Below, one piece after another: positions 2,355 through 26,568 of a DNA stretch of 33,804 nucleotides. The translations under genes were made by a program, and so were the position numbers. The stretch is from NCBI GenBank assembly GCA_016874035.1, contig VGVM01000030.1:1-33804 (forward strand), given 5' to 3'. The notes below the pieces were generated by a model. It was not told where the DNA came from. It saw only the letters and a list, made by a program, of their open reading frames with translations, and did not search any database. Position 1 is the stretch's first letter; each line of letters begins with the position of its first letter. The stretch comes from Gemmatimonadota bacterium (lineage in GTDB: Bacteria; Gemmatimonadota; Gemmatimonadetes; Gemmatimonadales; Gemmatimonadaceae).

Positions 2355-3149
2355 TCAGGACACCGTAACGCGGAGGCCGTCGAACGCGGGGCGTATCCCG
2401 TCCGGGAGCTCCGCCTCGAGCTCGGCGTGCGCAATGCGATGCGTGAGGTGCGTGAGGTACGTGCGCGCGGCGCCGACGGTCTTCGCGGTCTCGACGGCCT
2501 CGCTGATGCTGAGGTGTGTGGGGTGTGGCCGCCGAAAGAGCGCGTTCAGCACCAGCACCTTCACGCCGCGCAGGATCGCGAGGGCCGCCGCCGGCAGCTC
2601 CTTGGCGTCGGTCACGTAGCCGACGTCGCCAACGCGATAGGCGAACACGCGCATGTTCCCGTGTGGAACGTCGAACGGCGTGACCGTCTGGCCCGCGATC
2701 GTGACCGGCTCACCGGCGGCCAGCGTGTGCAACTCGGCTTCCGGCTTCGACGTGCCGGGGATCGGCTTCACCGAGTCGAACACGTACGCGAACTTGCGCC
2801 TTACGCTCTCGATCGCTTCGCTGGGCCCGTAGATCCGGAGCGTGCCCGCCTCGGGCGAGGCGAGGCCGCGCACGTCGTCCAGCCCATGCGTGTGGTCCGC
2901 GTGATCGTGCGTGTAGAGCACCGCGTCCACGTGCGCGACCCGGCACGAGATCAGCTGCATGCGGAGTTCCGGCGGCGTGTCGATCAGGATCCGCGCACCG
3001 CGTGACTCGACGACGGCACCGACGCGCGTCCGCTTGTCGCGCGGGTCCTCGGACGCGCACACGGCACACTCACAGCCGACCTGCGGAACGCCGAAGCTGG
3101 TGCCGGTGCCCAGGAACGTGAGCGTCTGCTGGCCGATGCCGACGGTCAC
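2355..3149 (-). CDS. PhnP-like metallo-beta-lactamase-fold hydrolase
   Basis: This 264-residue protein has the MBL-fold metal motif THDHADH (His81, His83, Asp85, His86). Later ligand-like segments are DVPHGN, YVTDAK and YLTHLTH. The early Cys cluster (Cys26, Cys28, Cys31) is typical of PhnP-type cyclic phosphodiesterases, which open phosphoribosyl 1,2-cyclic phosphate. No other phosphonate gene is in view, so the true substrate may be another cyclic phosphate; that is inference. I chose the GTG at 3149-3147 because it overlaps the pyruvate kinase stop in a GTGA arrangement and begins just before the conserved first strand. An upstream in-frame ATG would bury 99 extra residues inside the pyk coding region. 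The stop is two bases from pgi. Confidence 0.85.
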   Translation of the reverse strand: MTVGIGQQTLTFLGTGTSFGVPQVGCECAVCASEDPRDKRTRVGAVVESRGARILIDTPPELRMQLISCRVAHVDAVLYTHDHADHTHGLDDVRGLASPEAGTLRIYGPSEAIESVRRKFAYVFDSVKPIPGTSKPEAELHTLAAGEPVTIAGQTVTPFDVPHGNMRVFAYRVGDVGYVTDAKELPAAALAILRGVKVLVLNALFRRPHPTHLSISEAVETAKTVGAARTYLTHLTHRIAHAELEAELPDGIRPAFDGLRVTVS

Positions 3150-4558
3150 ACGGTCTCGACTTTGAGCGTGTTCGTGGACCCCGGGACATCGAACGGCACG
3201 CCCGCCGTGATGACGACCTTGTCCCCCGCATTCGCAAAGCCCTCGCGCACGACGAGCTCGCGGGCCGTCCGGGCCATCTCGTCGTAGCTGCGGGCGTGCG
3301 GCACGAGGAAAGGCATGACGCCCCAGGACAGCGCGAGCTGCTTCCAGGTGAGTTCCTGGTCCGTGAGCACGACGATCGGCACGCTGGGACGCCGCGAGGA
3401 CACGATCCGCGCGCTGAACCCGCTCTTCGTGAACACGATCACGCACTTGGCGCCGATCAGGCGCACGGCCGTGATCGTGGCCGACGCGATGGTCTCTTCC
3501 GTGGTGGCGGTCCCCGGCTCGAGCCGGTCCAACCCGATCCCGCGCGCCACGGGGTGCGTCTCCGCAGCGCCGGCGATCCGGTGCATCGCCTCGACGGCGA
3601 GCAGCGGGTACTTGCCGGAAGCGGTCTCGGCCGAGAGCATGACGGCGTCCGTGCCGTCGAGGACGGCATTGGCCACGTCGTTCGCTTCCGCGCGCGTGGG
3701 CCGCGGGTGCTCGATCATGGACTCGAGCATCTGCGTCGCCGTGATGACCGGACGGCCGAACCGGTTCGCGAGCCCAATGATGCGTTTCTGCTCGAGCGGC
3801 ACGCGCTCGTACGGCAGTTCCACGCCGAGGTCACCGCGGGCGACCATCACGGCATCGGTGACCTTGAGGATTTCCTCGATGCGGTCGAGCGCACTGTCCT
3901 TCTCGATCTTCGCGACAATCAGCATGCGCTTCGGGAGCAGTGCCCGGAGCGCCACGATATCCTCCGGTCGGCGCACGAAGCTCATCGCGAGGTAAGACAA
4001 CTCCTGTTGGATCGCGAAGGCGATGTCCTCGCGGTCCTTGTCGGTAAGCGAGGGCGCCGAGACTTCCGTGCCCGGAAGGTTCATTCCCTTGTGCGAGGTG
4101 ATCGTGCCGCCGTGCACGGTCGTGGCGACGACTCCGGTGGCATCCACGGCCGTCGCCGCGAACTCGAGAAGCCCATCGTTGACGAGGATGCGCCCGCCCG
4201 GCTTGAGGTCGCGTGCGATGTCGTCGTACGTGACCGGGATGTCCTCGCCCGTGGCGTACGCCTCCGGCACGAACCGGACGGATTCGCCGTCCGTGACCGC
4301 GCGTGGTGTGGCGAGGTCGCCGATCCGGATGCGCGGCCCCTGCAAGTCACCGAGGATGGCGACGGGGCGCCCCAGCTCCGCGGCGGCGTCACGGATCGCC
4401 GCGATGGTCCGCGCGTGCGCCGCGTGCTCGCCGTGGGAAAAGTTCACGCGTGCGACGTTCAGGCCGGCCTCGATCAGCTGGCGCAGGACCGCCGGCGACG
4501 ACGACGCGGGGCCGATCGTGCCGACGATCTTGGTTCGTGAATGTGCGGGCGGGGTCAT
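3146..4558 (-). CDS. pyk: Pyruvate kinase
   Basis: The 470-residue protein is the cytoplasmic enzyme transferring phosphate from phosphoenolpyruvate to ADP. Recognisable landmarks in order are TKIVGTIGPAS at residues 9-19, NVARVNFSHG at 34-43, the ILGDLQGPRIRIG segment, the metal and substrate region MVARGDLGVELP, and the long ITATQMLESMIEHPRPTRAEANDVANAVLDG signature region followed by DAVMLSAETASGKYP. The C-terminal domain (KCVIVFTKSGFSARIVSSRRP onward) is present, and there is no PEP-utiliser extension. The gene lies 20 bases after the transaldolase stop, and its own TGA overlaps the GTG of the next gene, so it sits inside an operon. Confidence 0.96.
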   Translation of the reverse strand: MTPPAHSRTKIVGTIGPASSSPAVLRQLIEAGLNVARVNFSHGEHAAHARTIAAIRDAAAELGRPVAILGDLQGPRIRIGDLATPRAVTDGESVRFVPEAYATGEDIPVTYDDIARDLKPGGRILVNDGLLEFAATAVDATGVVATTVHGGTITSHKGMNLPGTEVSAPSLTDKDREDIAFAIQQELSYLAMSFVRRPEDIVALRALLPKRMLIVAKIEKDSALDRIEEILKVTDAVMVARGDLGVELPYERVPLEQKRIIGLANRFGRPVITATQMLESMIEHPRPTRAEANDVANAVLDGTDAVMLSAETASGKYPLLAVEAMHRIAGAAETHPVARGIGLDRLEPGTATTEETIASATITAVRLIGAKCVIVFTKSGFSARIVSSRRPSVPIVVLTDQELTWKQLALSWGVMPFLVPHARSYDEMARTARELVVREGFANAGDKVVITAGVPFDVPGSTNTLKVETV

Positions 4559-4578: not shown

Positions 4579-5685
4579 TCAGCCGGCGAGCACACCCATC
4601 TTCTTCTCGATCCCGGCCAGCAGCGTGTCGAACGACTTCTGGAACGACGCCAGACCATCGACGAGCAGCGCGTCGGTGACCGCGTCAATCGAGATCCCCA
4701 GCGATTCGATCTCCGCGATCGCGGCGCGCGCGCCGGCGAAGTCCGTATCCACCGTGCGCGCGACCTTCCCGTGGTCGCGGAAGGCGTCGAGCGTGGCGGG
4801 CGGCAGCGTGTTCACCGTGTCCGGCCCCACGAGTGCCTCGACGTACTTCACGTCGGAATACGCGGGGTTCTTGGTGCCGGTGCTGGCCCACAGGGGGCGC
4901 TGTACCATGGCGCCCTTCGCGCGCAGGGCGTCCCAACGGGCGCCCGAGAACTTCTCGAGGAACAACGCATAGGCGAGTTGCGCGTTCGCCACCGCGGCCT
5001 TGCCCCGGAGCGCCAGCGCCTGCGGCGTGCCGATGGCGTCGAGCTTCTTGTCCACGTCGGAGTCCACGCGGCTCACGAAGAAGCTGGCCACCGAGGCCAC
5101 GTGGCCGAGCGCGCCCTTGGCGGCCGCCCGATCCTCCAGCCCGAGCAGGTAATGCTCGATGATCGTCGCATACGCGGACCGTGCGAACAGCAGCGTGACA
5201 TTCACGTTGATGCCGTCGGCGATCAACTGACGGAGCGCCGGAGCGCCCGCGGACGTGCCGGGCACCTTGATCATGACATTCGGGCGTGCAACGACCTTCC
5301 AGAGTCGCCGGGCTTCGGCCACGGTCGCCGCGGCATCGTGCGCCGCGCCCGGGGACACCTCGATGGACACATATCCGTCGGCGCCCTTCGTGGACTCGTA
5401 CGTCTTGCGGAAGCAGTCGCAGGCGGCGCGCACGTCGTCCGTCTCGACGGCCTCGAAGATCGCCCACGGCGTGTGATCGCCGGCGAGCGAGGCGAGCTGC
5501 GCGTCATACGCCGTGCCGGAGGCGAGCGCCTTCTCGAAGATCGTCGGGTTCGACGTCATGCCCGTGAGCGCGTCGGCCGGGATGCGCCGCGCGAGTTCCC
5601 CGCCCTGGACCAGTGTGCGGTCAATGAAGTCGAGCCAGATGGATTGGCCGGCGGCGTGGAGCGCGTGGAGCGGATTCGGAGCCAT
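4579..5685 (-). CDS. tal: Transaldolase
   Basis: The 368-residue protein is a class I transaldolase of the non-oxidative pentose phosphate pathway, moving a dihydroxyacetone unit from sedoheptulose-7-phosphate to glyceraldehyde-3-phosphate. The Schiff-base lysine is Lys140 in NVMIKVPGT. Other family blocks are GMTSNPTIFEKA near residue 42, INVNVTLLFA, and SVASFFVSRVDSDVDK. The length matches the long bacterial Tal form (about 370 residues). I chose the ATG at 5685 because the protein then begins just before the conserved QSIWLDFIDR helix. A longer reading adds 26 basic, non-family residues. Genes downstream on the same strand are pyk, the PhnP-like gene, pgi and the aldolase. This may be the first gene of that operon, since 55 bases separate it from the glycosyltransferase. 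Confidence 0.93.
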   Translation of the reverse strand: MAPNPLHALHAAGQSIWLDFIDRTLVQGGELARRIPADALTGMTSNPTIFEKALASGTAYDAQLASLAGDHTPWAIFEAVETDDVRAACDCFRKTYESTKGADGYVSIEVSPGAAHDAAATVAEARRLWKVVARPNVMIKVPGTSAGAPALRQLIADGINVNVTLLFARSAYATIIEHYLLGLEDRAAAKGALGHVASVASFFVSRVDSDVDKKLDAIGTPQALALRGKAAVANAQLAYALFLEKFSGARWDALRAKGAMVQRPLWASTGTKNPAYSDVKYVEALVGPDTVNTLPPATLDAFRDHGKVARTVDTDFAGARAAIAEIESLGISIDAVTDALLVDGLASFQKSFDTLLAGIEKKMGVLAG

Positions 5686-5721
5686 GTCAGGGCGTCGTCG
5701 AGAGGAAGGCAATCGCCGCGA

Positions 5722-5727
5722 AATATA
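5722..5727 (-). promoter_or_regulatory. Possible -10 box in front of the transaldolase operon
   Basis: On the minus strand this reads TATATT in the 55-base gap between the glycosyltransferase stop and the transaldolase ATG, an AT-rich patch in very GC-rich surroundings. No convincing -35 box lies 16 to 18 bases upstream. If real, it would let the central carbon operon be transcribed separately from the polysaccharide cassette. Confidence 0.25.
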
Positions 5728-5740
5728 GGGCGGCGGCCGC

Positions 5741-7171
5741 TTACTTCGGCTTTGTCGCGGCAAATCCTTCGCGGGTCATCACGCCCCAGCTCTCCACGCC
5801 CCGCACGTACTTCCAAAAGGCCTGCACACGGAACCAGACCGTCATTTGCCGGAACCCGAGGCCTTCGACGGCGGCCAGCGCCAGCATGCGAATGGTGTCG
5901 GCCCGCTGCGGATACCGCCGGAAGGAGAGCTCCTCGAGGAGGACGGCCCACACCGTGAGCAGCGACCCGTAGCCCACCGCGACAATGAAGAACAACGCCG
6001 CGAAGCCCCAGTCAATCTCGCCGATCAGCAGGCCGAGGATCGTAAACAGGTAACCACACACCTCGACCACCGGCGCGAGCAACTCACCGAACGTGAAGAA
6101 CGGCATTGCGACCATGCCCACGGGACCGTAGCGCGGATTGAACAACATCTTCCGGTGGGTGATCATCGTGCCGAGCAGTCCTCGGTGCCACCGCTCGCGC
6201 TGTCGTGCGAGCACCTTCACGTTCGCGGGCACCTCGGTCCACGCCACCGGGTCCGGGATGAACGGCATCTCGGCGCGGATCCCGTTCTCGATCAGGTAGC
6301 GGTGGAGCCGGACGACGAGGTCCATGTCCTCGGTCACGTTGCCGGTCTTGTAGCCGCCGATCGCGAGCATGTACTTGCGCCGGAACATCCCGAACGCACC
6401 GGAGATGATGAGGTTGCCGCCAAGGCGGTTCCACGCGAGGCGTCCGAAGAGGAACGCGCGCAGGTACTCGACCACCTGGCAGCCCGGGAGCCAGCGCGGG
6501 TCCACCCGCGCGTCCACCACGCGCCCCATCTCGACCTTGCAGGCGTTGGCGACGCGGATCGTCCCGCCCACGGCGGCGACCGATGTCCCCAGGATGAACG
6601 GGCGCGCGAGGCGGAGCAGCGCGTCGGGTTCGATCAAGGTGTCCGCGTCCACGGCGAGCACGTAGGGATGGTGCGCGGCGCAGAGCGCCGTATTGAGCGA
6701 ATCGGCCTTCCCGCCATTCTCCTTGTCGATCACCAGGAGCCGTGAGTGATGGCGCGAGCGGTACACGGCCTTGACCCGCTTGGTCTCCAGCGTACGCGGG
6801 TAGGCCGGCGGCACCTGGTAGAGATCGAACTCGCGAATCAGGACGTCCATCGTGTCGTCCTTCGATCCGTCATTGACCAGGATGACCTCGAGTCGCGGAT
6901 ACCGCAGCGTGAGGAACGACAACACGCTCGACTTGATCGTGATGCCTTCATTGTGCGCGGGCACGAGGATGCTCACCGGCGGCAGCGCATCCGACTGGAC
7001 GAGGCGTTGGAGCACCGCGTCCTCGTTGAGTTGCCAGTGCCGCCAGAGTTCCGGGATCGAAAGGATGAGCTGGAACGCGTAGAACGAGTTGAGGACCAGG
7101 AAGTACACGAGCGCCACGCGATCGGCCTGCACCAGCAGGTCCCGCGCGAAGAAGACAATGCCGTCGCTCAT
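5741..7171 (-). CDS. Membrane family 2 glycosyltransferase, PgaC-like
   Basis: The 476-residue protein is an inner-membrane processive-type GT2 synthase. An N-terminal membrane segment (about residues 19-40) precedes the cytoplasmic GT-A domain, which carries SILVPAHNEG, VNDGSKDDT (100-107), the metal-binding DAD at 175-177, the acceptor/base motif TEDMD at 280-284 and QRERW at 324-328. Three or so hydrophobic segments follow from residue 352 to about 420. This order matches poly-beta-1,6-N-acetylglucosamine and related exopolysaccharide synthases; the actual sugar and product are unknown. Its ATG overlaps the stop of the HEAT gene (ATGA), so it is co-translated with it. No deacetylase or outer-membrane exporter is nearby. 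The gene itself reads open throughout, unlike its two upstream partners. Confidence 0.87.
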   Translation of the reverse strand: MSDGIVFFARDLLVQADRVALVYFLVLNSFYAFQLILSIPELWRHWQLNEDAVLQRLVQSDALPPVSILVPAHNEGITIKSSVLSFLTLRYPRLEVILVNDGSKDDTMDVLIREFDLYQVPPAYPRTLETKRVKAVYRSRHHSRLLVIDKENGGKADSLNTALCAAHHPYVLAVDADTLIEPDALLRLARPFILGTSVAAVGGTIRVANACKVEMGRVVDARVDPRWLPGCQVVEYLRAFLFGRLAWNRLGGNLIISGAFGMFRRKYMLAIGGYKTGNVTEDMDLVVRLHRYLIENGIRAEMPFIPDPVAWTEVPANVKVLARQRERWHRGLLGTMITHRKMLFNPRYGPVGMVAMPFFTFGELLAPVVEVCGYLFTILGLLIGEIDWGFAALFFIVAVGYGSLLTVWAVLLEELSFRRYPQRADTIRMLALAAVEGLGFRQMTVWFRVQAFWKYVRGVESWGVMTREGFAATKPK

Positions 7172-8259
7172 TCGGACACCAGCTCCGTCAGGGCGCCATC
7201 GGTCAATCCGCTGATCACCGTCGCCATATCGGCGACGAAGCGATCGGCGTCGCCCTGCAGCTCCTGCAGGGCGGAGCGCCCGTCCTCGCCGAGCTGTGCC
7301 AGCGCGAGGCAGGAGTTGTAGCGCACCGCATAGGCCCGGTCATGCACCGCGCGCCGAAGGTCGGCGACCACACCGGGCGCGGCGAGGTGGCCGAGCGAAC
7401 GGGCCGCCGCCGCACGCACATCGGGATCGGAATCGGCAAGCAGGACGCGGAGCGAGGCGACGGTGCGCGCCGCCGGCCGCTCCGCAAGGGCGCGCGCGAC
7501 GGCGCGGCGTACGCGAGCGTCGTCGTGCGCCATGAGGGCGTCCACGTGCGCCAGCGCACCGGGAAGCCGCAGCGTCGCCGCCAGCGCGACCCAGTGCGCA
7601 AGCGCGCGGGAGTGCGCCGGTTCGGTGAGTCGCGAAATCAACGCGGGTTCCGCGAGCGCCCGCGTCTGCTGCAGCGCATCCTGGGTGAACCGGCGCACCA
7701 CCGGAGGCAGATGCGGAAAGCGGTCGAGTACACCCCCGATCAGCGCGGCGTCGGCGACGCGCGGGAGTGCGCCAACGGCCATGATGGCGACCGCCAGCTG
7801 GTCATCGGCCAGCAGGCGCGCCAGGGCGGGCCGGTCCTCCGGCGTCCCGACAAGCGCGATCGCGCGCGCGGCTTGCCGGCGTTTCCACCACTAGCGCGCA
7901 TCGGCCTGCGCGATGAAGGCGAGCATCCACGCGTCGTGTCGCAGGGCACTCGCGAGTTCGTCGCGGGACTCGGGCGGCAGCATCGCGCCGGCGGAGTCGC
8001 AGGCGAACTCGAGCGCGTCGTGCCGCGGCAGGCCGCGGAGCGCCTGGACGAGCGGACCGACCGACGCGCCGCCGGCGACCCAGTCCCGGAGCGCGTCGCG
8101 GGCAGTTTGCGTGAGGCCGGCGACCATGACCTGCTGCGCGCGATTCCGCCTGCGCTGCACGACCACGAATGCCACCAGCGCCGCTAGGAACATCACCTGT
8201 GCGATCGCGATCACCGCCAACGCCAGCGCGCCGCTGGAGACTTCGGCGGCCCCGTTCAC
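7168..8259 (-). pseudogene. Membrane-anchored HEAT-repeat protein interrupted by an in-frame TAG
   Basis: I read this as one gene of 364 codons that carries TAG at codon 123 (7893-7891). It starts at the GTG at 8259, which overlaps the regulator stop as GTGA. The first part has one membrane segment (about residues 11-37), then a basic stretch and a helical cytoplasmic region. After the TAG the same frame continues without a gap into WWKRRQAARAIALVG, the first of several HEAT-like repeats (for example DDARVRRAVARALAE, SDPDVRAAAARSLGHLA), to a TGA that overlaps the glycosyltransferase ATG. The first repeat straddles the region just after the stop, and the next ATG (7782) lies mid-repeat, so two separate genes are unlikely. 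HEAT arrays usually bind other proteins; here the partner may be the GT2 enzyme or the regulator. A sequencing error or readthrough could also explain the stop. Confidence 0.75.
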
Positions 8260-10184
8260 GCGGAAGCGTTCCTCGCTTTCCACGCGGTGAGCTTCGCCGT
8301 GAGCACCCGAAGGCTGACCGGCTTGAGCAGGTAGTCGAGGGCGCCGGACTGCAAGCCGCGGAGTTGTTCCGCCTCGGTCCCGTGCACGGTGAGGTACACG
8401 ACCTCGAACTGCCCGGGCCGCTCCACGCGCAGCTTTTCGTGCAGCGAATGACCATCGAGGCCGGGAAGGTCCACGTCGAGCAGCACGATCGGGCGCGTCT
8501 CGCGCACGCGCATCTGGCGGAGCGCTTCGAGCGCGCTCAGGCCGTCGGGTTAGTGGCGATGACTGAAGCCACGTGTCTCGAGCGCGAAGGTGATCAGGTC
8601 CGCCAGCGCCGCGTCGTCCTCGACGATCACCACGTCCGGCGCCATGTCGGCGTCGCCCGGATCCCACTCGCGCGCCGGCACCGCCGATTCGCGCGCGGCC
8701 TGTCGCGCCTCCCGCGCGCCGGCGAGCAACGCGAGCAGCGTGGCGTCACGTCCCTTGTCGAGGGTGCCCACCACCCCCGCGGTCCACGGAGGCGACCCTT
8801 CCGGGGCAAGCGCGAGGGTTGCCGCCATCGCCTCGACCGCCTCCCGGGGTGGCTGCGGGACGTACAACGCCAGCGCGTAGTCGTCCGCGAGTCCGCCGAC
8901 GCCACCGGCGGCCGTCACGGCGCCGACCAGCCGCCCACACTCGCGGTGCCAGGCCGCGGCAGACTCCGGCGTCTCCGGCAGGTCGTTCGGCGCGAGCACG
9001 ACGATGGACGCCGTATCGGCCCGGCGTGCGCTGAGCTCGGCGTCCAGGTCCCGCATGGTGCGCGATGGCAGCGTCACGCCGCTCTCGGCATGGACCCCTT
9101 CGCTCGCGAGCCGGCGCCGTTTCGCATCAAAAAGCGCGCCGACGCGCCGCTGAAACTCCGCCGGCGCGAACGGCTTCAGCATGTAGTCGTCCGCCCCCGC
9201 GCTGACCGCGGCGTCGCGGGTCTTGGCGTCCGCGTGCCCGCTGAGCACGAGGATAGGCGTGCGCCGGTGCGCCGGGAGCGCCCGGACCGCCCGGACCGCC
9301 CGGACCAGGTCGAGGCCGTTCGCCGTGCCCAGCTCGATGTCAATCACCAGGAGCGCCGCTTCACCACCGGAAACGGCGGCCATGAACGCTTCCGGCGTCG
9401 CCAATGCGTTCACGCCGAGGTTCAGGTGCTCACAGGCCAGCTGGACCAGCGTGCGCATGACGGGATCGTCGTCCACCGCGATGGCGCCCGCGGAGGCAAC
9501 CCGCGCCTTGGTGGCGAGCTGCGCGAGCGCGTCGAGCACTTCCGACGGCTCGGTGCGGACGTCGAGGACCCGCGCGCCGGCCGGTGGAGGCGACGCATCC
9601 GCCGCACTGCGCTGGCGGAGCATGAGCCGCGCGACGCCGGCCAGCTCGTCGAGGCCCGGTGTGCCGATCGCGGCGATCACGGCATGGGGAACACCGTCTT
9701 CGAGGGCCTCGTCCAGCTCATCGGCACGCACCCGCTCGACCTGGTACCCGCGCGCGCTGGCTTCGGTGGTGAGTGGGACCGCCGCCACGTCGCGCAAGCC
9801 GACGATCAGCAGGCGGCGCATGGGCATGGCGGGCGCTTCGCCATCGGTCGCGACCTCGGCCTCGAGCGCCTTGGTAAAGCGCGTGACGATGGGCGCGCGC
9901 CGGTCGCGATCCAGCTGCGGGTCAGCGGCCCATTTCTTCACCGCACTTTCGAGCGCCGCGGCCATCCGCCCGAGGCGGGGAAAGCCGAAGGTCGCCGCGC
10001 TGCCGTTCAGCCGGTGCAGCTCGCGACGCAGCGGCGTGAGCAACTCGGCCGCGTCCGGGCGCGCAGCGAGCTGCTCGCCGAGCTGCGCGAACGCATCCAC
10101 CGTGCCGCGGGCAACGGCCAGGAACTGGCGGCGCGCCTGCTCGAGGACTTCGGATTCGCCCGACGAATGAGGCTTGGTGGTCAC
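8256..10184 (-). pseudogene. HPt / receiver / degenerate GGDEF / receiver regulator interrupted by an in-frame TAA
   Basis: The frame spans 643 codons from a GTG at 10184, with TAA at codon 545 (8552-8550). Order of domains: an HPt with phosphoacceptor His57 in HRLNGSAATFG; an unclear stretch at 120-230; receiver 1 with acidic Asp238-240, phosphoacceptor Asp282 and Lys337; a degenerate GGDEF-like domain (GGLADDYALALYV in place of GGDEF), so probably without cyclase activity; then receiver 2 starting VVIVEDD near 518. The stop falls early in receiver 2. The same frame resumes with PDGLSALEAL and the phosphoacceptor Asp570 (LLDVDLPGLDG), TVHG and LLKP. A truncated product would lose the receiver 2 active site. 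No DNA-binding domain is seen, so output is likely by protein contact. The gene is coupled to the HEAT gene by a GTGA overlap. Confidence 0.78.
9279..9305. repeat. Three exact copies of a 9-bp unit inside receiver 1
   Basis: The unit CGCCCGGAC occurs three times in tandem without a mismatch. On the coding strand it specifies Val-Arg-Ala three times, codons 294-302 of the regulator. It lies just after the phosphoacceptor Asp282, where receiver domains normally have a shorter helix-to-strand link. Confidence 0.95.
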
Positions 10185-11768: not shown

Positions 11769-12824
11769 ATGAACCGACTTTGTGTCCGCGGCAGCGCGTG
11801 CGCTGCCTGGCTCGTCCTGCTCAGCGGTATGCTCCTGACCGGCCGGCCGGCCGCCGCGCAGGACCCCACGCCGAACATCACCGGCCGCGTCATCGTGCTC
11901 GGCGACATCCCGGTCTCCGACGTCGAGGTGCGCCTGGAGGGCACCCAGCGGACCGTGCGCACGGACCAACGCGGGTATTTCGCGTTCACTGGTGTCGGCG
12001 AGGGCGCCCAAGAGCTGAGCGTGCGCGGGATCGGGTACATGCCCGGGCGCCTGGCGATCCGCGTCCCCGACCGTTCGCTCAATGTCAGCATCACGATCGT
12101 CCCGTCGCGCGCGATGCTCGACACCGTGCAGATCCGCGAGCGCATCAACGTGCTGTCCGGCATCGTGGTGGACGAGGAGAACAAACCGGTGGCGGGCGCG
12201 ACGATCCAGGTGATCACTGGCGAGAAGCGCACGGTGACGTCCGGCGAGGACGGATGGTTCACGCTGACCTCGGTGCGCGAGGGCGTCGTGGTGTTCCAGA
12301 CGCGCAAGGAGGGCTATTTCGCGACGAACACGGCCGTCCGCATGGACGAGTGGCGTGGTGTGGTCGTGCACATGGAGCTCCTGGATCCCAAGTACGGCGC
12401 GACGCGGGCTGCGGAGGCCGCCGGGACGAGCAACAACGCGCTCGCGGCGCTTCGCGACGCCTCCATGCGGATGAGCACGCGCGGGAGCCGCGCGGTGGTC
12501 GTTTCCGCCGAGGAGCTGGCGCCGTTCGCCGACATGTCGCTCGGAGAGGCCGTCCGCCGCACCAGGCCAGGCGCATCCATCGCGTTCGAGTTGCAGAGCG
12601 CGCGCGGCGCGTTCTGTGTGCTGCTGGACGGCCGCCGGGCCGTGGGCAGCACGACGATCGATTCGTGGCGCGCGACCGATGTCGAGATGGTGGAACTCTA
12701 CCCACCAGGGACGGAGTCGTCGGGTACCGTCGCGCGCTACCTGCGCGCCGCGGGCTGCCGGACGATCGCCCCGTCGTCCGGTCGCACCCGCGGCCCGTTC
12801 TACGCCGTGCTCTGGATGCGCTAG
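11769..12824 (+). CDS. Secreted carboxypeptidase-regulatory-like protein with a C-terminal plug-like domain
   Basis: The 351-residue protein begins with a Sec signal peptide (hydrophobic core [10 protein letters not shown], cleavage near AAAQ). Two carboxypeptidase-D regulatory-like beta-sandwich modules follow, about residues 38-118 ([23 protein letters not shown]) and 128-205 ([20 protein letters not shown]). The C-terminal 100 residues resemble a TonB-dependent receptor plug: a [12 protein letters not shown] helix, a FCVLLDGRR strand, and [11 protein letters not shown]. There is no beta-barrel. Such solitary proteins are usually periplasmic or surface-attached; the function is unknown. The ATG at 11769 is the first that includes the signal peptide. 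It is transcribed away from the dipeptidase gene across a 141-base gap and its TAG overlaps the ahcY stop tail to tail. Confidence 0.8.
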
Positions 12825-14335
12825 TAGCGGTAGTGCTCGGCCTTGTACGGCCCCTCGACCGGAACGCCGATGTACGAGGCCTGGTCGGCAGTGAGCTTCG
12901 TCAGCCGGACGCCGAGCTTGTCGAGGTGGAGCCGCGCCACTTTTTCGTCGAGCTTCTTCGGGAGCGTGTACACCGCCTTCGCGTCGTAATGCGTGCCTGA
13001 GACGGTCGGCTTGCCCTGCGCCGCGAGGTGCAGGTCAATCTGCGCGACGACCTGGTTGGTGAACGAGCAGCTCATCACGAAACTGGGGTGGCCGGTCGCG
13101 CAGCCGAGGTTGAGCAGCCGGCCCTCGGCGAGCACCATCACGCTGTGGCCGTCCGGGAACACCCACTCGTCGTACTGCGGCTTGATGTTGATGCGCTCGA
13201 TCCCGTCGTAGGACTTGAGGCCGGCCATGTCGATCTCGTTATCGAAGTGGCCGATGTTCCCGACGATCGCCTTGTCCTTCATCCGCGCCATGTGCTCGGC
13301 GGTGATGATGTCGCGATTGCCCGTGGCGGTCACGAAGATGTCGGCCGTGGCCACGACATCCTCGAGCGTCGCGACCTGGTAGCCCTCCATCGCGGCCTGC
13401 AACGCGCAGATCGGGTCGATCTCGGCGATCACGACGCGCGCACCCTGGCCCTTGAGCGCCTGGGCACAGCCCTTGCCGACGTCGCCGTAGCCGAGCACGA
13501 CCGCCACCTTGCCGGCCAGCATCACGTCACTGGCGCGCAGGATGCCGTCCGTCAGCGAGTGCCGGCAACCGTAGAGGTTGTCGAACTTCGACTTCGTCAC
13601 GGAGTCGTTGACGTTGATCGCCGGGAACAGGAGCGTACCGGCCTTCATCATCTCGTAGAGCCGATGGACGCCCGTCGTGGTTTCCTCGGAGACTCCCTTC
13701 AACGCCTTTGCGAGGCTCGTCCAGCGCGAACCGTCCTTCTTCAGTTCCGTGCGCAGGAGATCGAGGATGATGCCGTATTCCTCGCTCTCGGTCGCGGGGT
13801 TGTGCTGTGGCACGCGCCCGGCGGCCTCGAACTCCACGCCCTTGTGCACGAGCAGCGTCGCGTCGCCGCCGTCATCCAGCAGCAGCGTCGGTCCGCCGCC
13901 GTCGGGCCACATCAGCGCCTGCTCCGTGCACCACCAGTATTCGACCAGCGTTTCGCCCTTCCATGCGAAGACCGGAACGCCCGCGGGTTCGCTCACCGAC
14001 CCCGCCGGACCGACCACCACGGCGGCCGCCGCGTGGTCCTGCGTGGAGAAGATGTTGCAGCTCACCCAACGCACGTCGGCGCCCAGATGCGTGAGCGTCT
14101 CGATGAGCACGGCGGTCTGAACGGTCATGTGCAGCGACCCCATGATGCGCGCGCCCGTGAGCGGCTTCGATGCGCCGTACTCGGCGCGCAGGGCCATGAG
14201 GCCCGGCATCTCGTACTCGGCGAGGCGGATTTCCTTACGGCCGAACTCGGCGAGTTCGAGATCCTTGACCTTGAACGGCGCGCGGCCGGCGGCGCTGGAG
14301 GTGGCGAAGGGATGCGGTGCGAGTGCGGACGTCAT
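12821..14335 (-). CDS. ahcY: Adenosylhomocysteinase (S-adenosylhomocysteine hydrolase)
   Basis: The 504-residue cytoplasmic enzyme splits S-adenosylhomocysteine into adenosine and homocysteine, keeping methylation reactions running. Landmarks: [30 protein letters not shown], the substrate lysine and aspartate region [23 protein letters not shown], the NAD-binding [29 protein letters not shown], and the C-terminal KAEHYRY that closes over NAD of the partner subunit. It has the extra segment of about 40 residues (around [20 protein letters not shown]) known from many bacterial and plant enzymes. The ATG at 14335 is chosen because the family N-terminus ([17 protein letters not shown]) follows shortly; a longer frame enters the regulator gene. 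The start lies 17 bases after the SahR-like stop, so the two form an operon. Confidence 0.96.
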
Positions 14336-14352
14336 TGGAGGCTCTTCGGTGG

Positions 14353-15288
14353 TTAGAGGGCGAGAGTGGCGACAAACAGTGCAGGGCCGGTGGCTTCGGG
14401 GGCCCCGGGTGAGGCGCGGACGGTGCACGACGTGAAGCCGACGGCCTGTGCCCAGGCCCGCAGGTCCGCATCGGCGAACCCGGCCCACACGTGGCCGAGT
14501 CGGTCGCGGAGATCGGCACGCTCGTGCGGCCGAAGGTCAACGATGATGCAGCGCCCGCCTGGCCGGAGCGTGCGACGAACGCCCGCAAGCACGGCCGCGG
14601 GGTCGCTGACGTAGTGCAACACCAGTGACAGCACGGCAACGTCCACTTCGGCGTCCGCGAGGGGCAGGGCTTCGAGCGAGCCCTGCCTGACCTCGACGTT
14701 CGGTGCGTCGCCGAGTCGTGCCTTGGCGACTCGTATCATCGCGGCGGACTCATCTATGGCGATCACGCGGCGCACCGCGGGCGCGACCGCGGCGGCGAAG
14801 TGGCCGGCGCCGCATCCGAGATCGGCGACGACCGCCACGGGATCGAGGAGCCCGATGAACGGCAGCAGTTCGCTGCGCGCGCCGAAGAGTTCGGATCGAA
14901 TCCGTTCCCACTGGCCCGCGCTGCCCGCGAAGAAGCGCTGCGAAGTCGTGTGCCGTGCCGCGAGGACGTGCTGGATGCGCGTGGCATCGCGCTGCACGGC
15001 CGGCATCGCGAGCACTTCGTCGCGTACGGCCATCCAGAGTTTCCGGCCGGCGCCATCGCGTTCTCCGGCTCCGAGCCGGTACAGGTTGCTCGTGCCGTCT
15101 TCGCGGCCGCTGATCAGGCCGGCGTCGGCAAGTGCGCGGAGGTGCCGGCTGACCGTGGACTGCGGCAGTTGGAGCACGGCGCGCAACTCACCGACAGTCA
15201 GTTCCTGTCGTTCGAGTGCGGCGACCAGCCGCGCCCGGATGGGGTCGGCGAGCGCGGCAAGGCGGCTGAGGGCGAGCGAGCGTTTCAT
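14353..15288 (-). CDS. SahR-like regulator: ArsR helix-turn-helix fused to a SAM-dependent methyltransferase-type domain
   Basis: The 311-residue protein joins an ArsR-type winged helix (residues 1-72, recognition helix around [16 protein letters not shown]) to a class I methyltransferase fold (about 110-311) with the SAM/SAH-binding motif [10 protein letters not shown] at 155-164. It has none of the cysteines that metal-sensing ArsR proteins carry near the DNA-binding helix; its cysteines lie only in the second domain. SahR of Proteobacteria, an ArsR-family regulator of the methionine cycle, often lies beside ahcY. The direct position upstream of ahcY here suggests the same role: sensing SAH through the methyltransferase fold. 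Whether the domain still methylates something is unknown. The start is ATG at 15288 and a perfect inverted repeat covers it, consistent with autoregulation. Confidence 0.85.
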
Positions 15289-19942: not shown

Positions 19943-22159
19943 ATGCTTGCCCGGGTGGTGGTCGCGGCGTGTGTCGTGTCGGTTCCCGCGGTGATGGCGG
20001 CGCAGCGTAATCCCTGCACCGCGCGGCATCCTCGTGTGGACGACGTGCGGATCGAAGGCAGCCGCGCGGTTTCGTCGGCCGCGCTGTTCCCGCTCCTCGC
20101 GACCGAACGCACGAGCTTCTGGCGCCGCACCTTCGGCTGGCGGCGCGCCACCTTGACGTGCCTCGACTCGGCGGACGTCGTGCGCGACGCCGCGCTGATC
20201 GCGGACGAACACCGCGACCGCGGATTCCTGGAAGCCACGGTGGAGGGCCGGGTCGAGCGGTACGGGGACCGCAGGGCCCGCATACGGTTTCGCGTGAGCG
20301 CCGGCGAGCCGCTCGCGGTCTCGCGCGTGGCCGCGGGCGGCGTGCCACCGCGCGTGCTCGACAGTGCCGCGCTGACGCGACGGCTCCGGGGCCAGGCGCT
20401 GGATGATTCCGTCGTGTACGCGGTGGCGGAATCGTTGCACGCCGTGGTGCGCGACGCCGGGTACGCGCGTGCGCAGCCGCCCACTGTCCAGATTCGCCCG
20501 GACAGCGGTGCGCGCCGCGCGTATGTCGAGATGACGTTCCGCACCGGCAGTGTCACCGCGGTCTCAGATATCAATGTTGCGTTCGTGCCGACCGGGCGCG
20601 CGCCGACGCTCTCCGCGGAGGCCGCGCGTTCCGCGTTTGGCATCCGGCCGGGCGACCGGTTCAGCGGCGAGCGCATCGGGCTGGGGCAACGCGACCTCAA
20701 CGCGCTCGACCTTTACCGCCAGATTCGCGTGGACACGGCTCCCGCCGCTTCCGCCTCGCCCGATTCGATCCGCCTCGTGCTGACCCTCGGCGAAGGCGAC
20801 CGGCGCCGCGCGCGCACGACGGCCGGATGGGGAACCCTGGACTGCTTCCGCACCCAGACGCGCGCGGTCGAGCAGGACTTCCTCGGTTCCGGACACCGGC
20901 TCGAACTGAGCGCGCGGCTGTCGAAGATCGGGCTGGGCGAACCGTTTGACGCGCTGCGCTCTTTCTGTTCCCCGCGAGTGCGGGACGACGCGTTCAGCCA
21001 GAACATGAACTACTACGTCGGCGCGTCACTGCGGCTCAGGGGCTGGGCGACGTGGCGTGGCCTGCGCCTGCAACCGGAGCTCACGCTGTTCAGTGAGCGG
21101 CGATCGCAGGTCAACGCATACGAGCAAACAACGGAGTTCGGCGCGCTCGCGACATCCACGCAGTCCCTGCGGAATCGCAAGACGTTCGGCCTGCAGTACG
21201 CCTATACGGACAGCCGAACGCGCGCGGATCAGGCGGTGTCGTGTACGCAGTTCGGCTTCTGCCGCCTAGAGGACCTCGCCAGCTTCGTCCTGCGGTCGCC
21301 GTTACACGCCGTATCCGCGTCGCTGGCGAAGAACCCGCTGCTGCCGACCGACGATCCGCGGTCCGGGTATCGCTGGAGCATCGAAACCAAGTTCGGCCAT
21401 GCGTCGGTCGGCCAGGTGCTGCCGATCGACTACGGACGACTGCTGGCCGAGGGCGCGTGGTACCACGCGCTGACGCCCTGGCTGACGCTGGCGACGCGGT
21501 TGCAGGTCGGTGGGATCGTCGCGCCGGCCGACGAGAGCTTCCTGCTGCCGCCCTCCGAGCGGTTTTACGGCGGCGGTCAGAACACCGTGCGCGGATTCGG
21601 CCAGAACCTGCTCGGACCCGGCAGCTACATCGTTTCGCGCATTGACACGGTCAGCGGCCCCGGCGGCGCGCCCGTTGGCGCGGCGCGACCCCAGGACGAA
21701 TACGATCGCATCGCGCCGAGCGGCGGAAACGCGATGTGGATCGGGAACATCGAACTGCGTTCGACGCGCGGATGGCCCAGCGACCTGCTCCGGTGGGTGC
21801 TATTCGTGGACATGGGCCGCGTCTGGAACACGCAGAACGTGTTCAGCGTGACGAACGCCGACACTCGTGCGACACCGGGCATCGGCGCGCGCGTAATCAC
21901 GCCGCTCGGACCGTTTCGTGTGGACATCGGTTACGACCCGACCAGCCCGGAGCCCGGCCCCGCGTTCTACGTGATCCCGGCGTCGAACGGCGCGGTCGGT
22001 CGCGCCGTGTGCGTGAGCCCAGGGTCGGAGGACCCGATCACGCTCCGGGCCGGCGACACGCCGTTTGGCGGGCGCTGCCCCGCCAGCTACCTCCCCACCC
22101 GTCCGCGGTCGCTGCTGTCGCGACTCACGTTCCACTTCAGCCTGGGGAACGCGTTCTGA
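19943..22159 (+). CDS. tamA: Omp85/BamA-family outer-membrane protein, probably TamA-like
   Basis: The 738-residue protein has a Sec signal (cleavage near VMAAQ). POTRA-like repeats follow to about residue 290 (VDDVRIEGSRAVSSAALFPLL, then VSRVAAGG and DINVAFVPTG). The rest is a predicted 16-stranded outer-membrane barrel starting near GWGTLDCFRTQTRAVEQDFLGSG. The Omp85 lid-loop motif VRGFG lies in GGGQNTVRGFGQN, and the protein ends in Phe, the usual outer-membrane C-terminal signal. BamA itself is normally encoded near lpxD and skp, not here. The overlapping tamB gene argues for a TamA role in outer-membrane protein insertion or lipid transport. Extra cysteines in the barrel (for example CTQFGFCRLED) are unusual. 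Confidence 0.85.
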   Translation: MLARVVVAACVVSVPAVMAAQRNPCTARHPRVDDVRIEGSRAVSSAALFPLLATERTSFWRRTFGWRRATLTCLDSADVVRDAALIADEHRDRGFLEATVEGRVERYGDRRARIRFRVSAGEPLAVSRVAAGGVPPRVLDSAALTRRLRGQALDDSVVYAVAESLHAVVRDAGYARAQPPTVQIRPDSGARRAYVEMTFRTGSVTAVSDINVAFVPTGRAPTLSAEAARSAFGIRPGDRFSGERIGLGQRDLNALDLYRQIRVDTAPAASASPDSIRLVLTLGEGDRRRARTTAGWGTLDCFRTQTRAVEQDFLGSGHRLELSARLSKIGLGEPFDALRSFCSPRVRDDAFSQNMNYYVGASLRLRGWATWRGLRLQPELTLFSERRSQVNAYEQTTEFGALATSTQSLRNRKTFGLQYAYTDSRTRADQAVSCTQFGFCRLEDLASFVLRSPLHAVSASLAKNPLLPTDDPRSGYRWSIETKFGHASVGQVLPIDYGRLLAEGAWYHALTPWLTLATRLQVGGIVAPADESFLLPPSERFYGGGQNTVRGFGQNLLGPGSYIVSRIDTVSGPGGAPVGAARPQDEYDRIAPSGGNAMWIGNIELRSTRGWPSDLLRWVLFVDMGRVWNTQNVFSVTNADTRATPGIGARVITPLGPFRVDIGYDPTSPEPGPAFYVIPASNGAVGRAVCVSPGSEDPITLRAGDTPFGGRCPASYLPTRPRSLLSRLTFHFSLGNAF

Positions 22160-25100
22160 GCGCGCGTCGACGGCGATGGTTGATCGCCGGTGCCGCGGCA
22201 GGGCTTGCCGTGGGCGCGCTCGCCGCCGCCGGCGCTTGGCTGCTGCGTACCGACGGTGGGATTGGCACCTTGCGCCGCTCGCTGGAGTCGCGCCTGTCCG
22301 CGCGCCTGACCGACGGCGCGGCGTTGCGGATCGGGTCGCTGAGTCGCGCCGACGACGGCGCGTGGGTCGTCGGGAACCTCGCGGTCGCCGACGCGAAGGG
22401 TCGGTCGCTCCTCGCGATCGGCGAGGCACGCTTTGCGCTGTCGGTCGGCGATGCGCTGCGCCGCCGCGTGCACTTGGGCGTCGTCTCGCTCCGGGGAGTG
22501 CGCGTTTCGCTGATCCAATCGCGAGACGGCGCGTGGAACACGGACGGCCTCGTGCGCCCGTCGGGCGGCGGGTCCGGCGGGCCCGCACCGCTCGTGACGG
22601 CCGACAGCATCGCGCTCGAGGATGCGGCAATCATGATTTCGGCGCGCGACACCAGCGCCGCCCTGCCGAATGTCGAACGATCGTTGCGCGAGCTGGCGCT
22701 CGCACTCGGCCCGACGACGCTCAGCAGCCCGGATTCGTCGGGCGGCTGGACCGTACTGCGGCAGCTCGGCGCACAGGTTTCGCTGCCGCCCGTGCACGTC
22801 ACGGGGGCGAGTGGCCCGATCCGCTGGTGGCCCGATTCGTTGTCCCTCACGCTCGACCAGTTCACGCTCCCGGCGACGCATGCATCGGCGCGCGGCCGTG
22901 TGTCGTGGCCGCGCGGCCAACCCGTGCAGATGGACATTGCGATTCGCGCCGACAGCGCAGCCGTCGCGGACATCCGGTGGGCCTCGGCGCTGATTCCGCC
23001 GCGCGGTACGGCGAGCGCGGACCTGCGCATCCGCGGTACGGGAAGCGAGTTCGTGTACGACGTGGAACGATTCTCCCTCGCGTCGGCCACGTCGCGGGTG
23101 CGTGGTTCGTTCCGGGTCAGGGCCGGGCGCAGTGTCGCAGCCGAATCGCTCCGACTCTCGTTCGATCCGCTTGGCATGGATGTGCTGCGCGACATCCTTG
23201 GCGATTCGGTGATCGCCCCGCCGTGGGCCGGCGCGTTGACCGGGACGGTGAGCGGGCGGGGCGGCCCGTTGGACGCCATCGCGATTGACAGCGTGGCGCT
23301 CGAGTATGCCGACGCGAGGATCGGCGGGGCACGATCGCAGCTCAGCGCCCACGGCGTCGTTGACGCCAGCGGGCCGAAGTCCCGGTTGACGCCGTTCAAC
23401 GTGCGGTTCTCGCCGCTCGATATCCGCACGCTCGGCGTGATCGTTGCGGCGGCGGATTCGATGCGTGGCACCCTGGGCGGCGAGGTGACACTCGAGGGCC
23501 CGACCGACAACCTGCTGTTCCGTGAACTTGTCGCCGTGCACCGGGACGGCGCGCTGGCCCGGTCGCAGGTTCGCGGCAGCGGACGCCTCGCCGCCGACCT
23601 CGCGTCACAGTGGCTTGAGGCCGACCTCACGATTGACACGCTGGCGATCGGCACGGTCGCGGCGCCGTTTACCACCGCACCGCTTCGCGGCTTTCTGCGC
23701 GGTGCCCTCGCCCTCCGCGCAACGGGCGATACGCTGTCGCTCGACGCTCGACTGGCCGGCGAAGGCATGCGCGTTCGACTCGCGGGCAACACGTTGCTGG
23801 ATTCGACTCGCACCACGATGCAGTTGGCGGGGCGGCTCGACTCGCTCGACCTCTCGCGGTTCGTGGCGCGCGCGGACATACCGGGCATGCAGCTCAGTGG
23901 GGCCCTGTCCGTCGCGATCGACGACGCCGCGGCCGGCTCGGACCGCCACATCCAGGTCGCGCTCGACTCGACAAGCCGGTTGGGTGGTTCCGCGATTCGG
24001 GGTGGCGCCCTCCGGCTGGGACTGGACTCGACCGGGATCCATCTGGACACGCTGGACCTGACGGCCGACACGTGGCAGGTGGAAGCGCGTGGCCGCCTCC
24101 CCCGCGCCGTTGGCGCCGCGGGCAATCCGGACTCGATCCTGTTTGCGCTGCGCGTGGATTCACTGGATGCGCTTCGTACCATCGTGCTCGATTCGACCGG
24201 TGCGCCGCTGATCACGGGACTCGCCGGACGGGCTCGCGTGGCCGCCGGGACGATCACGGGTTCGTTCGAGTCGGCAACGGTTGTCGCGGACGTCGGCATC
24301 GAGGATCTTGCCGCCGACGGCGTGCGTGTACGTCGTGCGATCGGCACGGTTCGCGTTGCGGACCTGCCGGACAGTGCGACCGGAATCATCCGGGCGACGC
24401 TCGATTCGCTCATGTCGGGGTCGGCGCGCCTCGACCGCGCGGCCATCCAGGCCGACCTGCGACGCGGTCACTCGGCGCGCGTCACGCTGCGAGGCACGAC
24501 GGCCGATTCGATCGCGCTCAGCGGATCGGCGGACGTGACATGGCCGGATCAGGGGTATCGGATCGCGGTGGACTCGTTCGCCGCGACCGTGGGGCCGCAC
24601 GCGTGGACGCTCGAGCGCGCCGCGAACCTGTCGGTGGCCACCGGGGTGGTGACGGCGGATACGATCCGGCTGACCAGCAACGCCGGGGCGTCCGTGCAGG
24701 TCGGTGGGCGATTCGATGATGCGGGCCCCGTCTCCGGATTCCTGCGTGCGAATCGGGTCAGCGTGGCCGAGTTCGCGTTCACCGGTGCCCTGCCCCCGGG
24801 CCTGAGCGGCACCCTCGCAGCGGAGGCCTCGCTCGGCGGGACGCGAGCCGCACCGAAGTTCAATGCCCGCCTGGAGATCGACTCCGTCGCCACGAACAAC
24901 CCGGATGCCCAATCGCGCCGGGCGATCCAGGGCAACGGCCGCGAGGCAGCGGCGGGGGCGGCCAGCCGATCGCGCGCGCGCCTCGTGCTCGACGCCGCCT
25001 ACGAAGACCGACGGTTGGCGATTACGTCGGCCGGCGATGTCAGTGGGCGGCGCGTGCTGGATCTCGGCGCGCGGCTGCCGCTGAACCTTTCGCTGGATTC

Positions 25101-26568
25101 CGTGCCCGATCGGATCGTGGATGAGCCCATGACGCTGCGGCTCCGGCTCGACCGCCTGCTCCTCGCCGATTTCGACGGTCTCGCCGACGGCATCAGCGCC
25201 CTTGGCGGTCGCCTCGATGCGGACCTGGATGTCGGCGGCACCATACGGCGCCCGCGTGGCCGTGGCACGCTGACCATGAGTGATGGCGCCATGGTGCACG
25301 ACAACCTCGGGCTCGACCTGCGCGATGCCACGGCGCTGCTGACCCTGAGCGGCGACTCCGTCATCGTGAATCGCATGCGCGTGACGGACAGCCAATCGCA
25401 AACGGACACGGCTTCGCTGCAGGGCGTGGTGCGCTTGAGCGGCACGAAATGGACCGAGTGGACCGCCAACCTGCGGAGCGCGGCGAGCCAGTTCCGTGCC
25501 ATTGACGACCCGCGCCTGGCGACCGCCGAGGCGTCCTGGGACCTGTCGATCGCCGGGCCGCTCGCCGCGCCGACGGTGACCGGCGCCGTGACGCTGCCGT
25601 ACGCGGTATTCACGATCGGCCCCCAACGGCGGGCTCGCGGCCTCCGCGGTCCGCGCACGGAGCGCAGTTCGCCGCTGGGAACACCACAGGCCAATGGCGT
25701 CCTCGTGACGCTCGGCAACGACGTGCGGCTCAAGTCCCGTGAAGCAAACGTGCAGCTCACCGGCGCCGTCGAACTCTTCGGCCCGCTCGACTTCCCCTGG
25801 GTCAGCGGATCCGTGTCGGCGGCGCGCGGCACGTACCGCGTTGACCTCGGCGTGATCAAGCGCACGTTCGTGGTGGACAGCGGGTCCGTGATCCTCGAGG
25901 GAACGCCGGACATCCCTGCGGCGCTGGACATCCACACGTCCTACACCGTGCGCCGCCCGGACAACGACGTCAAGGTGGGCGCCCGCGTGTATGGCACCAC
26001 GCTCCGTCCGCGACTCAACCTCACCAGCGATCTCGGCTCCGCCGTGCCCCAGAGCGAGATCATCAGCTACCTCGTGTTCGGCCGGCCGAGCTTTGGCGTC
26101 AACGACTCACGGCAGTCAGCGGCGCAATCGGTCACGCAGTCGGCGACCGCCGCGGTGGTGCCGTCGCTCGGGGGGCTCCTGGAGTCCACGCTTGGGACCC
26201 TGCTGCCGTTCTTCAGCACGATGCAGGTCTCGACCGTCGCGGGCGAAGGGCCTGAGAACATCATGGCGAACCCGCTGGACGGCCTGCTGAACAGCGTGGC
26301 CGTTACGGGAGGCCGTCAGGTCGGGACGGACACGTTCTTCAGCGTGAGTGGGGGCGTCTGCCGGGCGGGTCGCACCTCGTCGAGCTCGAACGTGCCGTTC
26401 TGGCTCGGGACGCTGATCGAATACCGGCCGAAGCGCACGCTGGGCGCGAGTATCGCGATCGACCCCGGCGTCGCACCCTGCTCACGCGCGGGGTCGTTCG
26501 GCGACACGTACCAGTTCGGCCTGGACCTGTCCTACGACTGGAAGTTCGGCGGGCCGCGAAAACCGTAA
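22156..26568 (+). CDS. tamB: TamB-like translocation/assembly module protein (DUF490), probable CTG start
   Basis: The 1470-residue protein begins with a basic N-terminus and one membrane anchor (AGAAAGLAVGALAAAGAWLL), then a very long periplasmic part of repeating beta-strands bridging to the outer membrane. The C-terminal DUF490 domain is clear: SVSAARGTYRVDLG, RTFVVDSGSVILEGTPDIPAALDI, PRLNLTSDLGSAVPQSEIISYLVFG. TamB-like (AsmA/VPS13-like) proteins help outer-membrane assembly and phospholipid transport. No ATG, GTG or TTG lies in frame between the tamA stop region and the anchor. A CTG at 22156 overlaps the tamA TGA (CTGA) and would keep the four arginines before the anchor. The first TTG, at 22180, would remove them. 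I prefer the CTG, but the start is uncertain. Confidence 0.85.
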   Translation: MSARRRRWLIAGAAAGLAVGALAAAGAWLLRTDGGIGTLRRSLESRLSARLTDGAALRIGSLSRADDGAWVVGNLAVADAKGRSLLAIGEARFALSVGDALRRRVHLGVVSLRGVRVSLIQSRDGAWNTDGLVRPSGGGSGGPAPLVTADSIALEDAAIMISARDTSAALPNVERSLRELALALGPTTLSSPDSSGGWTVLRQLGAQVSLPPVHVTGASGPIRWWPDSLSLTLDQFTLPATHASARGRVSWPRGQPVQMDIAIRADSAAVADIRWASALIPPRGTASADLRIRGTGSEFVYDVERFSLASATSRVRGSFRVRAGRSVAAESLRLSFDPLGMDVLRDILGDSVIAPPWAGALTGTVSGRGGPLDAIAIDSVALEYADARIGGARSQLSAHGVVDASGPKSRLTPFNVRFSPLDIRTLGVIVAAADSMRGTLGGEVTLEGPTDNLLFRELVAVHRDGALARSQVRGSGRLAADLASQWLEADLTIDTLAIGTVAAPFTTAPLRGFLRGALALRATGDTLSLDARLAGEGMRVRLAGNTLLDSTRTTMQLAGRLDSLDLSRFVARADIPGMQLSGALSVAIDDAAAGSDRHIQVALDSTSRLGGSAIRGGALRLGLDSTGIHLDTLDLTADTWQVEARGRLPRAVGAAGNPDSILFALRVDSLDALRTIVLDSTGAPLITGLAGRARVAAGTITGSFESATVVADVGIEDLAADGVRVRRAIGTVRVADLPDSATGIIRATLDSLMSGSARLDRAAIQADLRRGHSARVTLRGTTADSIALSGSADVTWPDQGYRIAVDSFAATVGPHAWTLERAANLSVATGVVTADTIRLTSNAGASVQVGGRFDDAGPVSGFLRANRVSVAEFAFTGALPPGLSGTLAAEASLGGTRAAPKFNARLEIDSVATNNPDAQSRRAIQGNGREAAAGAASRSRARLVLDAAYEDRRLAITSAGDVSGRRVLDLGARLPLNLSLDSVPDRIVDEPMTLRLRLDRLLLADFDGLADGISALGGRLDADLDVGGTIRRPRGRGTLTMSDGAMVHDNLGLDLRDATALLTLSGDSVIVNRMRVTDSQSQTDTASLQGVVRLSGTKWTEWTANLRSAASQFRAIDDPRLATAEASWDLSIAGPLAAPTVTGAVTLPYAVFTIGPQRRARGLRGPRTERSSPLGTPQANGVLVTLGNDVRLKSREANVQLTGAVELFGPLDFPWVSGSVSAARGTYRVDLGVIKRTFVVDSGSVILEGTPDIPAALDIHTSYTVRRPDNDVKVGARVYGTTLRPRLNLTSDLGSAVPQSEIISYLVFGRPSFGVNDSRQSAAQSVTQSATAAVVPSLGGLLESTLGTLLPFFSTMQVSTVAGEGPENIMANPLDGLLNSVAVTGGRQVGTDTFFSVSGGVCRAGRTSSSSNVPFWLGTLIEYRPKRTLGASIAIDPGVAPCSRAGSFGDTYQFGLDLSYDWKFGGPRKP

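Follow-up and report, generated by a model that had tools for sequence, protein, structure and literature searches.

The window, the whole stretch of 33,804 nucleotides (33.8 kb) that was analysed, belongs to a Gemmatimonadota assembly of 3.08 Mb in 191 contigs, in which one GT2 of the type described here was found. Positions 5741-10184 of its minus strand carry three co-directional genes in the order regulator, HEAT-repeat protein and GT2 synthase (Table 1). Overlaps of 4 bases each join the regulator to the HEAT gene (GTGA) and the HEAT gene to the GT2 gene (ATGA). This trio and its overlaps had been pointed out in a preliminary description of the DNA, and both the coordinates and the Pfam domains, including a HEAT_2 match of 4e-15 in the HEAT gene, bear them out. 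The composition given there for the regulator, with its own HPt, two receivers and a degenerate GGDEF domain, also holds: the HPt and the receivers were recognised by Pfam, and the GGDEF by alignment and Foldseek. Although the gene order in that description is real, it did not mention that two of the three genes contain premature stops.

Table 1. Coordinates of the cassette genes, their domains and the premature stops in the window.
Feature	Position	Strand	Remarks
Regulator gene	8256..10184	(-)	642 codons if one in-frame stop is read through
Regulator architecture		(-)	HPt - putative degenerate receiver-like segment - REC1 - degenerate GGDEF - REC2
HPt domain	9921..10091	(-)	Pfam Hpt 3e-10; candidate phospho-acceptor His57, motif LRRELHRLNG
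REC1, receiver with phospho-acceptor Asp	9144..9479	(-)	Pfam Response_reg 2e-19
Degenerate GGDEF domain without GGDEF signature or RxxD	8670..9122	(-)	Alignment to Bacillaceae GGEEF; Foldseek
REC2, C-terminal receiver	8295..8636	(-)	Pfam 6e-13 on the piece downstream of the stop
In-frame TAA within REC2 of the regulator	8550..8552	(-)	Codon 545; sense codon in homologues
HEAT-repeat protein gene, membrane-anchored	7168..8259	(-)	363 codons if one in-frame stop is read through
In-frame TAG inside the HEAT gene	7891..7893	(-)	Codon 123
GT2 processive polysaccharide synthase, intact	5741..7171	(-)	476 aa; Pfam GT2 8e-24

Several neighboring genes were named by eye. A transaldolase-like gene (4579-5763, minus strand) and a pyruvate kinase-like gene (3146-4558, minus strand) lie downstream of the GT2 gene in the same direction, and the same two genes follow the GT2 in the relative L031. 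A glucose-6-phosphate isomerase-like gene, named from the sequence reading, is located at 1060-2352. In the region 12821-15288 (minus strand), an S-adenosylhomocysteinase-like gene is preceded by a gene in which an ArsR-type regulator is joined to a methyltransferase-like domain. On the plus strand, an outer-membrane-barrel-like ORF (19943-22159) precedes a second, very large one (21736-26568), and the two resemble a TamA/TamB pair.

The regulator and HEAT genes are each broken by one in-frame stop, and the GT2 gene is the only intact gene of the cassette here. A frameshift behind the short ORFs was ruled out, as each gene is interrupted by just one stop codon that lies in frame and homology resumes in the same frame behind it. 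All three genes are intact in relatives such as L031, in which the gene order and the downstream transaldolase are the same and the upstream dipeptidase apparently is too. In comparison with L031, the corrected dN of the regulator was 0.31 before and 0.25 after the stop, while dS was 1.34 and 0.77, respectively. The contrast was weaker for the HEAT gene, with a dN of 0.65 and a dS of 1.25 before the stop and 0.36 and 0.96 behind it, and the front part of this gene exhibited no excess of synonymous change against the more distant relative L032. Since dN is below dS on both sides of the stops, clearly so for the regulator and more weakly for the HEAT gene, the stops are either recent or assembly errors. 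With stops in two of its genes, the window's copy of the unit is probably either inactive or wrongly sequenced.

The GT2 protein contains the D, DxD, ED/TED and QxxRW motifs of a processive synthase, with the catalytic residues D101, D175/D177, E281-D282 and Q324-R325-x-R327-W328. In an alignment of 64 homologues these residues were found in all 64, except for D282 (63/64). The best named family was PgaC/IcaA (TIGR03937) with a score of 129.5 bits. This is far below the cut-off of 422.3, and membership in PgaC was rejected; hence the label of PgaC-like synthase given previously is right as to the nearest named family but does not extend to the family itself. Pfam searches of the GT2 returned only GT2-type families and one weak unrelated DUF match, with no PilZ or MshEN domain, and comparison of the sequence with the PDB returned weak GT2-domain matches only.

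The HEAT protein has a single N-terminal transmembrane helix, and its solenoid is predicted to be cytosolic. A hydrophobic N-terminal helix was present in 62 of 63 HEAT homologues and a positive flank C-terminal to the helix in 52 of the 63, the latter fitting a solenoid that would face the cytosol. The AlphaFold2 model of the intact HEAT protein of L031 (pLDDT 95.8) showed one long N-terminal helix followed by an alpha-solenoid, in agreement with the Pfam HEAT_2 assignment. The closest PDB structures to this model were designed alphaReps and armadillo/HEAT solenoids, i.e., protein-binding scaffolds.

In the regulator, the phospho-acceptor His of the HPt domain was kept in 25 of 30 aligned homologues and the phospho-acceptor Asp in 28 (REC1) and 29 (REC2) of the 30. 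This conservation is that of a phosphorelay protein, and phosphotransfer is predicted from it. A receiver was matched in 30/30 of these regulators and an Hpt domain in 26, and a DNA-binding domain (MarR type) in a single one. REC2 is the part of the regulator most widely conserved across phyla. Some Gemmatimonadota regulators align only over the HPt and the terminal receiver, and therefore these two parts seem sufficient; the gene adjoining the unit in Bacteroidota, Mesorhizobium and Haloarcula encodes a single receiver. A third, degenerate receiver-like segment may lie between the HPt and REC1 (approximately residues 122-215), as judged from the sequence and the predicted secondary structure.

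Pfam recognised no GGDEF in the middle of the regulator, but this part aligned with the GGDEF of Bacillaceae homologues, which is intact. For the L031 regulator, whose AlphaFold2 model had a mean pLDDT of 86.7, the best PDB matches in Foldseek were PleD chains (REC-REC-GGDEF; E 1.6e-15, about 18% identity). The VIA alignment of the regulator was dominated by receiver matches and carried little information on the GGDEF part. The GG(D/E)EF signature of an active diguanylate cyclase and the RxxD I-site of a YdaK-type receptor are lost in the window's regulator and in all closely related Gemmatimonadota regulators. Among the aligned regulators, only the Bacillaceae copies retain GGEEF and the RxxD I-site, and in these bacteria the unit may also make c-di-GMP. 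In two Bacillus loci (L060:5231-6907 and L062:5316-6899) the regulator upstream of the HEAT gene has complete GGEEF and RxxD sequences between two receivers. Considering the GGDEF loss in Gemmatimonadota and the single-receiver neighbors elsewhere, the last receiver, and not c-di-GMP, is the shared element. The earlier suggestion that the regulator senses nucleotide binding therefore does not describe a shared feature, and c-di-GMP as the common input was rejected as a general rule, the GGDEF being degenerate in Gemmatimonadota regulators and missing in some.

Recurrence of the trio in other genomes had been proposed as a test of the preliminary description, and the trio recurs across phyla. 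With the GT2 alone as the query, a search of 84,980 species genomes (GTDB) returned 59 loci, 51 of which (L031-L081) share at least 37% identity with the GT2 and 49 of which have usable upstream sequence. The HEAT gene was directly upstream of the GT2 gene in all 49, and a receiver gene was located within 3 kb of the HEAT gene in 44; a 45th locus (Paludibacter) has one further upstream. No receiver match was found near the unit in the remaining 4 of 49 (Clostridia, Campylobacteraceae and one unassigned), and therefore HEAT and GT2 can exist without a receiver. The HEAT-GT2 pair was found in Gemmatimonadota, Bacillota, Bacteroidota, Actinomycetota, Pseudomonadota and Campylobacterota, as well as in metagenome-assembled genomes labelled Acidobacteria or Bryobacteraceae. 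The closest named relatives are Gemmatimonadota metagenome-assembled genomes.

A plasmid collection gave 14 GT2 matches, and in all seven that were opened (Mesorhizobium, Deinococcus, Erythrobacter, Emticicia, Legionella, Paenibacillus and the archaeon Haloarcula) the HEAT gene was again directly upstream of the GT2 gene. No receiver was found within 6 kb at the Deinococcus and Legionella loci. On the Haloarcula halophila plasmid (L108, 2232-7320), a kinase, a single receiver, HEAT and GT2 are co-directional, in an organism with no outer membrane to cross. As a control, neither HEAT nor a receiver was found at 11 loci of other GT2s, a weak control with flanks of only about 1.5 kb. Over 53 loci the pairwise-distance correlations were 0.96 (GT2-HEAT), 0.95 (GT2-REC) and 0.93 (HEAT-REC); inside the main clade they were 0.92 to 0.93, and shared vertical descent also contributes to such values. 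One genome (G029) has a second regulator-GT2 locus on its contig C3 (L103:654-8595), with a hybrid kinase upstream, a partial GT2 and no HEAT match at the locus, which is possibly a degraded copy.

The previous statement that no kinase, exporter or deacetylase is present is correct for the window's cassette, whereas relatives encode a kinase, an HPt, a barrel and, rarely, a deacetylase alongside. Zunongwangia, Paludibacter, Sediminicola and Citromicrobium have a hybrid histidine kinase with an HPt domain next to the unit; in Bacillus, kinases lie downstream of it. The order on the Mesorhizobium plasmid is histidine kinase, response regulator, response regulator, YaiO, HEAT, GT2, and an Hpt gene adjoins them on the opposite strand. 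The YaiO outer-membrane barrel and sulfatase/LTA-synthase-like enzymes accompany the unit in many relatives, and a polysaccharide deacetylase rarely does so. YaiO was matched in 11 of 60 relatives, in some of them directly beside the GT2 gene. In the window's cassette no outer-membrane porin was found, and its genome had no match to YaiO, the porin family that was searched. The YaiO, sulfatase-type and deacetylase neighbors agree with exopolysaccharide synthesis.

On this basis we consider it fairly probable that the cassette forms the central part of a synthase-dependent exopolysaccharide system under post-translational phosphorelay control through the HEAT protein. In the proposed mechanism, a hybrid histidine kinase, encoded beside the cassette in several relatives and not here, would start the phosphate transfer. 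Phosphate would move through receiver and HPt domains to the terminal receiver, which usually has no DNA-binding output domain. This receiver would then alter its own interaction with the HEAT solenoid, which a single helix tethers to the inner membrane. Through this the HEAT protein would gate the GT2 synthase, which would polymerise and extrude a sugar polymer. In diderm relatives the polymer would exit via the YaiO-type barrel. A polymer of the amino-sugar type is a guess by analogy, from the resemblance to PgaC. The observations comprise the gene order with its overlaps, the domains and their predicted folds, the conserved catalytic and (for the most part) phospho-acceptor residues, and co-inheritance. 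From them we infer the direction of phosphotransfer, the REC-HEAT and HEAT-GT2 contacts, the identity of the polymer and its export route. The protein-level control suggested previously fits the pattern of a recurring trio, receivers mostly without a DNA-binding domain, a HEAT protein with a predicted membrane anchor and cytosolic solenoid, and a processive synthase, and the contacts that it presupposes are putative.

We give a little less than even weight to the reading that the cassette is a decaying remnant in this organism, silenced by the two stops with the GT2 alone left. Both in-frame stops of the 33.8 kb window fall within the cassette, and the unit is patchy in the genus, where a close GT2 occurs in five of the 18 genomes, the window's own being one of the five; however, the low dN of the regulator relative to dS on either side of the stop, and more weakly that of the HEAT gene, argues against decay. 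Such decay is compatible with phosphorelay control through the HEAT protein, which concerns intact copies. For those copies, the synthase could instead depend constitutively on the HEAT protein for its assembly or as a scaffold, while the receiver acts on another component of the same envelope process. The greater constancy of HEAT (49/49, compared with 44/49 for the receiver, which is absent from some loci) is in line with this, but HEAT and GT2 are inherited together with the terminal receiver (r about 0.93-0.95), which in most cases has no other output domain, and we regard a purely scaffolding role as unlikely.

Somewhat less probable still is that c-di-GMP is the real input, with a degenerate-GGDEF receptor like B. 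subtilis YdaK activating the synthase and the receivers only modulating it. YdaK, whose GGDEF is degenerate, uses its I-site to control an operon for exopolysaccharide that includes putative glycosyltransferases (PMC5422440), and the GGEEF and RxxD sequences of the Bacillaceae homologues are complete. However, neither element survives in the Gemmatimonadota regulators near the window's. No GGDEF was matched in several regulators or in the single-receiver genes found in Bacteroidota, Mesorhizobium and Haloarcula, and the GT2 lacks a PilZ or MshEN match. GT2 families are broad, and the enzyme might make a glycolipid or modify a surface protein with no polymer formed. This we consider very improbable, as the processive-synthase residues are kept across the 64 homologues, the best named family is PgaC/IcaA, and the neighbors include the YaiO barrel, polysaccharide deacetylase and LTA-synthase-like enzymes.

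No published description of the trio or of a YaiO-HEAT-GT2 set was found in the open-access full-text literature, in accordance with the preliminary remark that no described system of exactly this composition was known to its author. The EmbRS system was considered as a match and rejected, being a different, multi-gene polysaccharide cluster, and a mention of YaiO in a Methylobacterium paper proved to be a strain name and not the barrel. At the protein level, c-di-GMP is the main switch of the known synthase-dependent exopolysaccharide systems (cellulose, PNAG and Nfr; PMC8669469 for Nfr). The presence of the HEAT-synthase pair in many bacterial phyla and an archaeon, in most cases accompanied by a receiver, points to an additional switch that works by phosphorylation. 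The arrangement of the cassette suggests that signals may turn on slime production at the protein level rather than via genes. We find it quite possible, though just short of probable, that this is an undescribed synthase class common to bacteria and archaea, gated by a phosphorelay via a membrane HEAT adaptor and not by c-di-GMP or transcription. If so, a function would be provided for a HEAT family so far annotated by its repeats alone, and the defined gene set and culturable relatives (Sutcliffiella, Zunongwangia, Mesorhizobium and Haloarcula) are suited to testing it.

Compared with PgaC/IcaA (TIGR03937), the cassette GT2 has the same catalytic motifs, but its partner is a HEAT protein instead of PgaD, and PgaA and PgaB are absent nearby. 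The regulator resembles PleD, the top structural match of the L031 model, and differs from it in the additional HPt and C-terminal receiver and in the loss of the cyclase site. The nearest described analogues are YdaK and NfrB, both of which use c-di-GMP (PMC5422440, PMC8669469). In the B. subtilis YdaJ-N/YdaK system, a degenerate GGDEF regulator is likewise encoded with a putative exopolysaccharide synthase, and post-translational activation of the synthase was proposed; YdaK, however, is a membrane protein that needs its RxxD I-site, and the available part of the source describes no receiver, HPt or HEAT protein (PMC5422440). The E. coli NfrB-NfrA system is similar in having a GT2 synthase together with a TPR outer-membrane barrel; a local signalling protein makes contact with the synthase, and the system is switched at the protein level. 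Its input, however, is c-di-GMP on the MshEN domain of the synthase, with no HEAT protein or phosphorelay described (PMC8669469), whereas in the cassette the corresponding switch would be a phosphorylated receiver acting through the HEAT protein.
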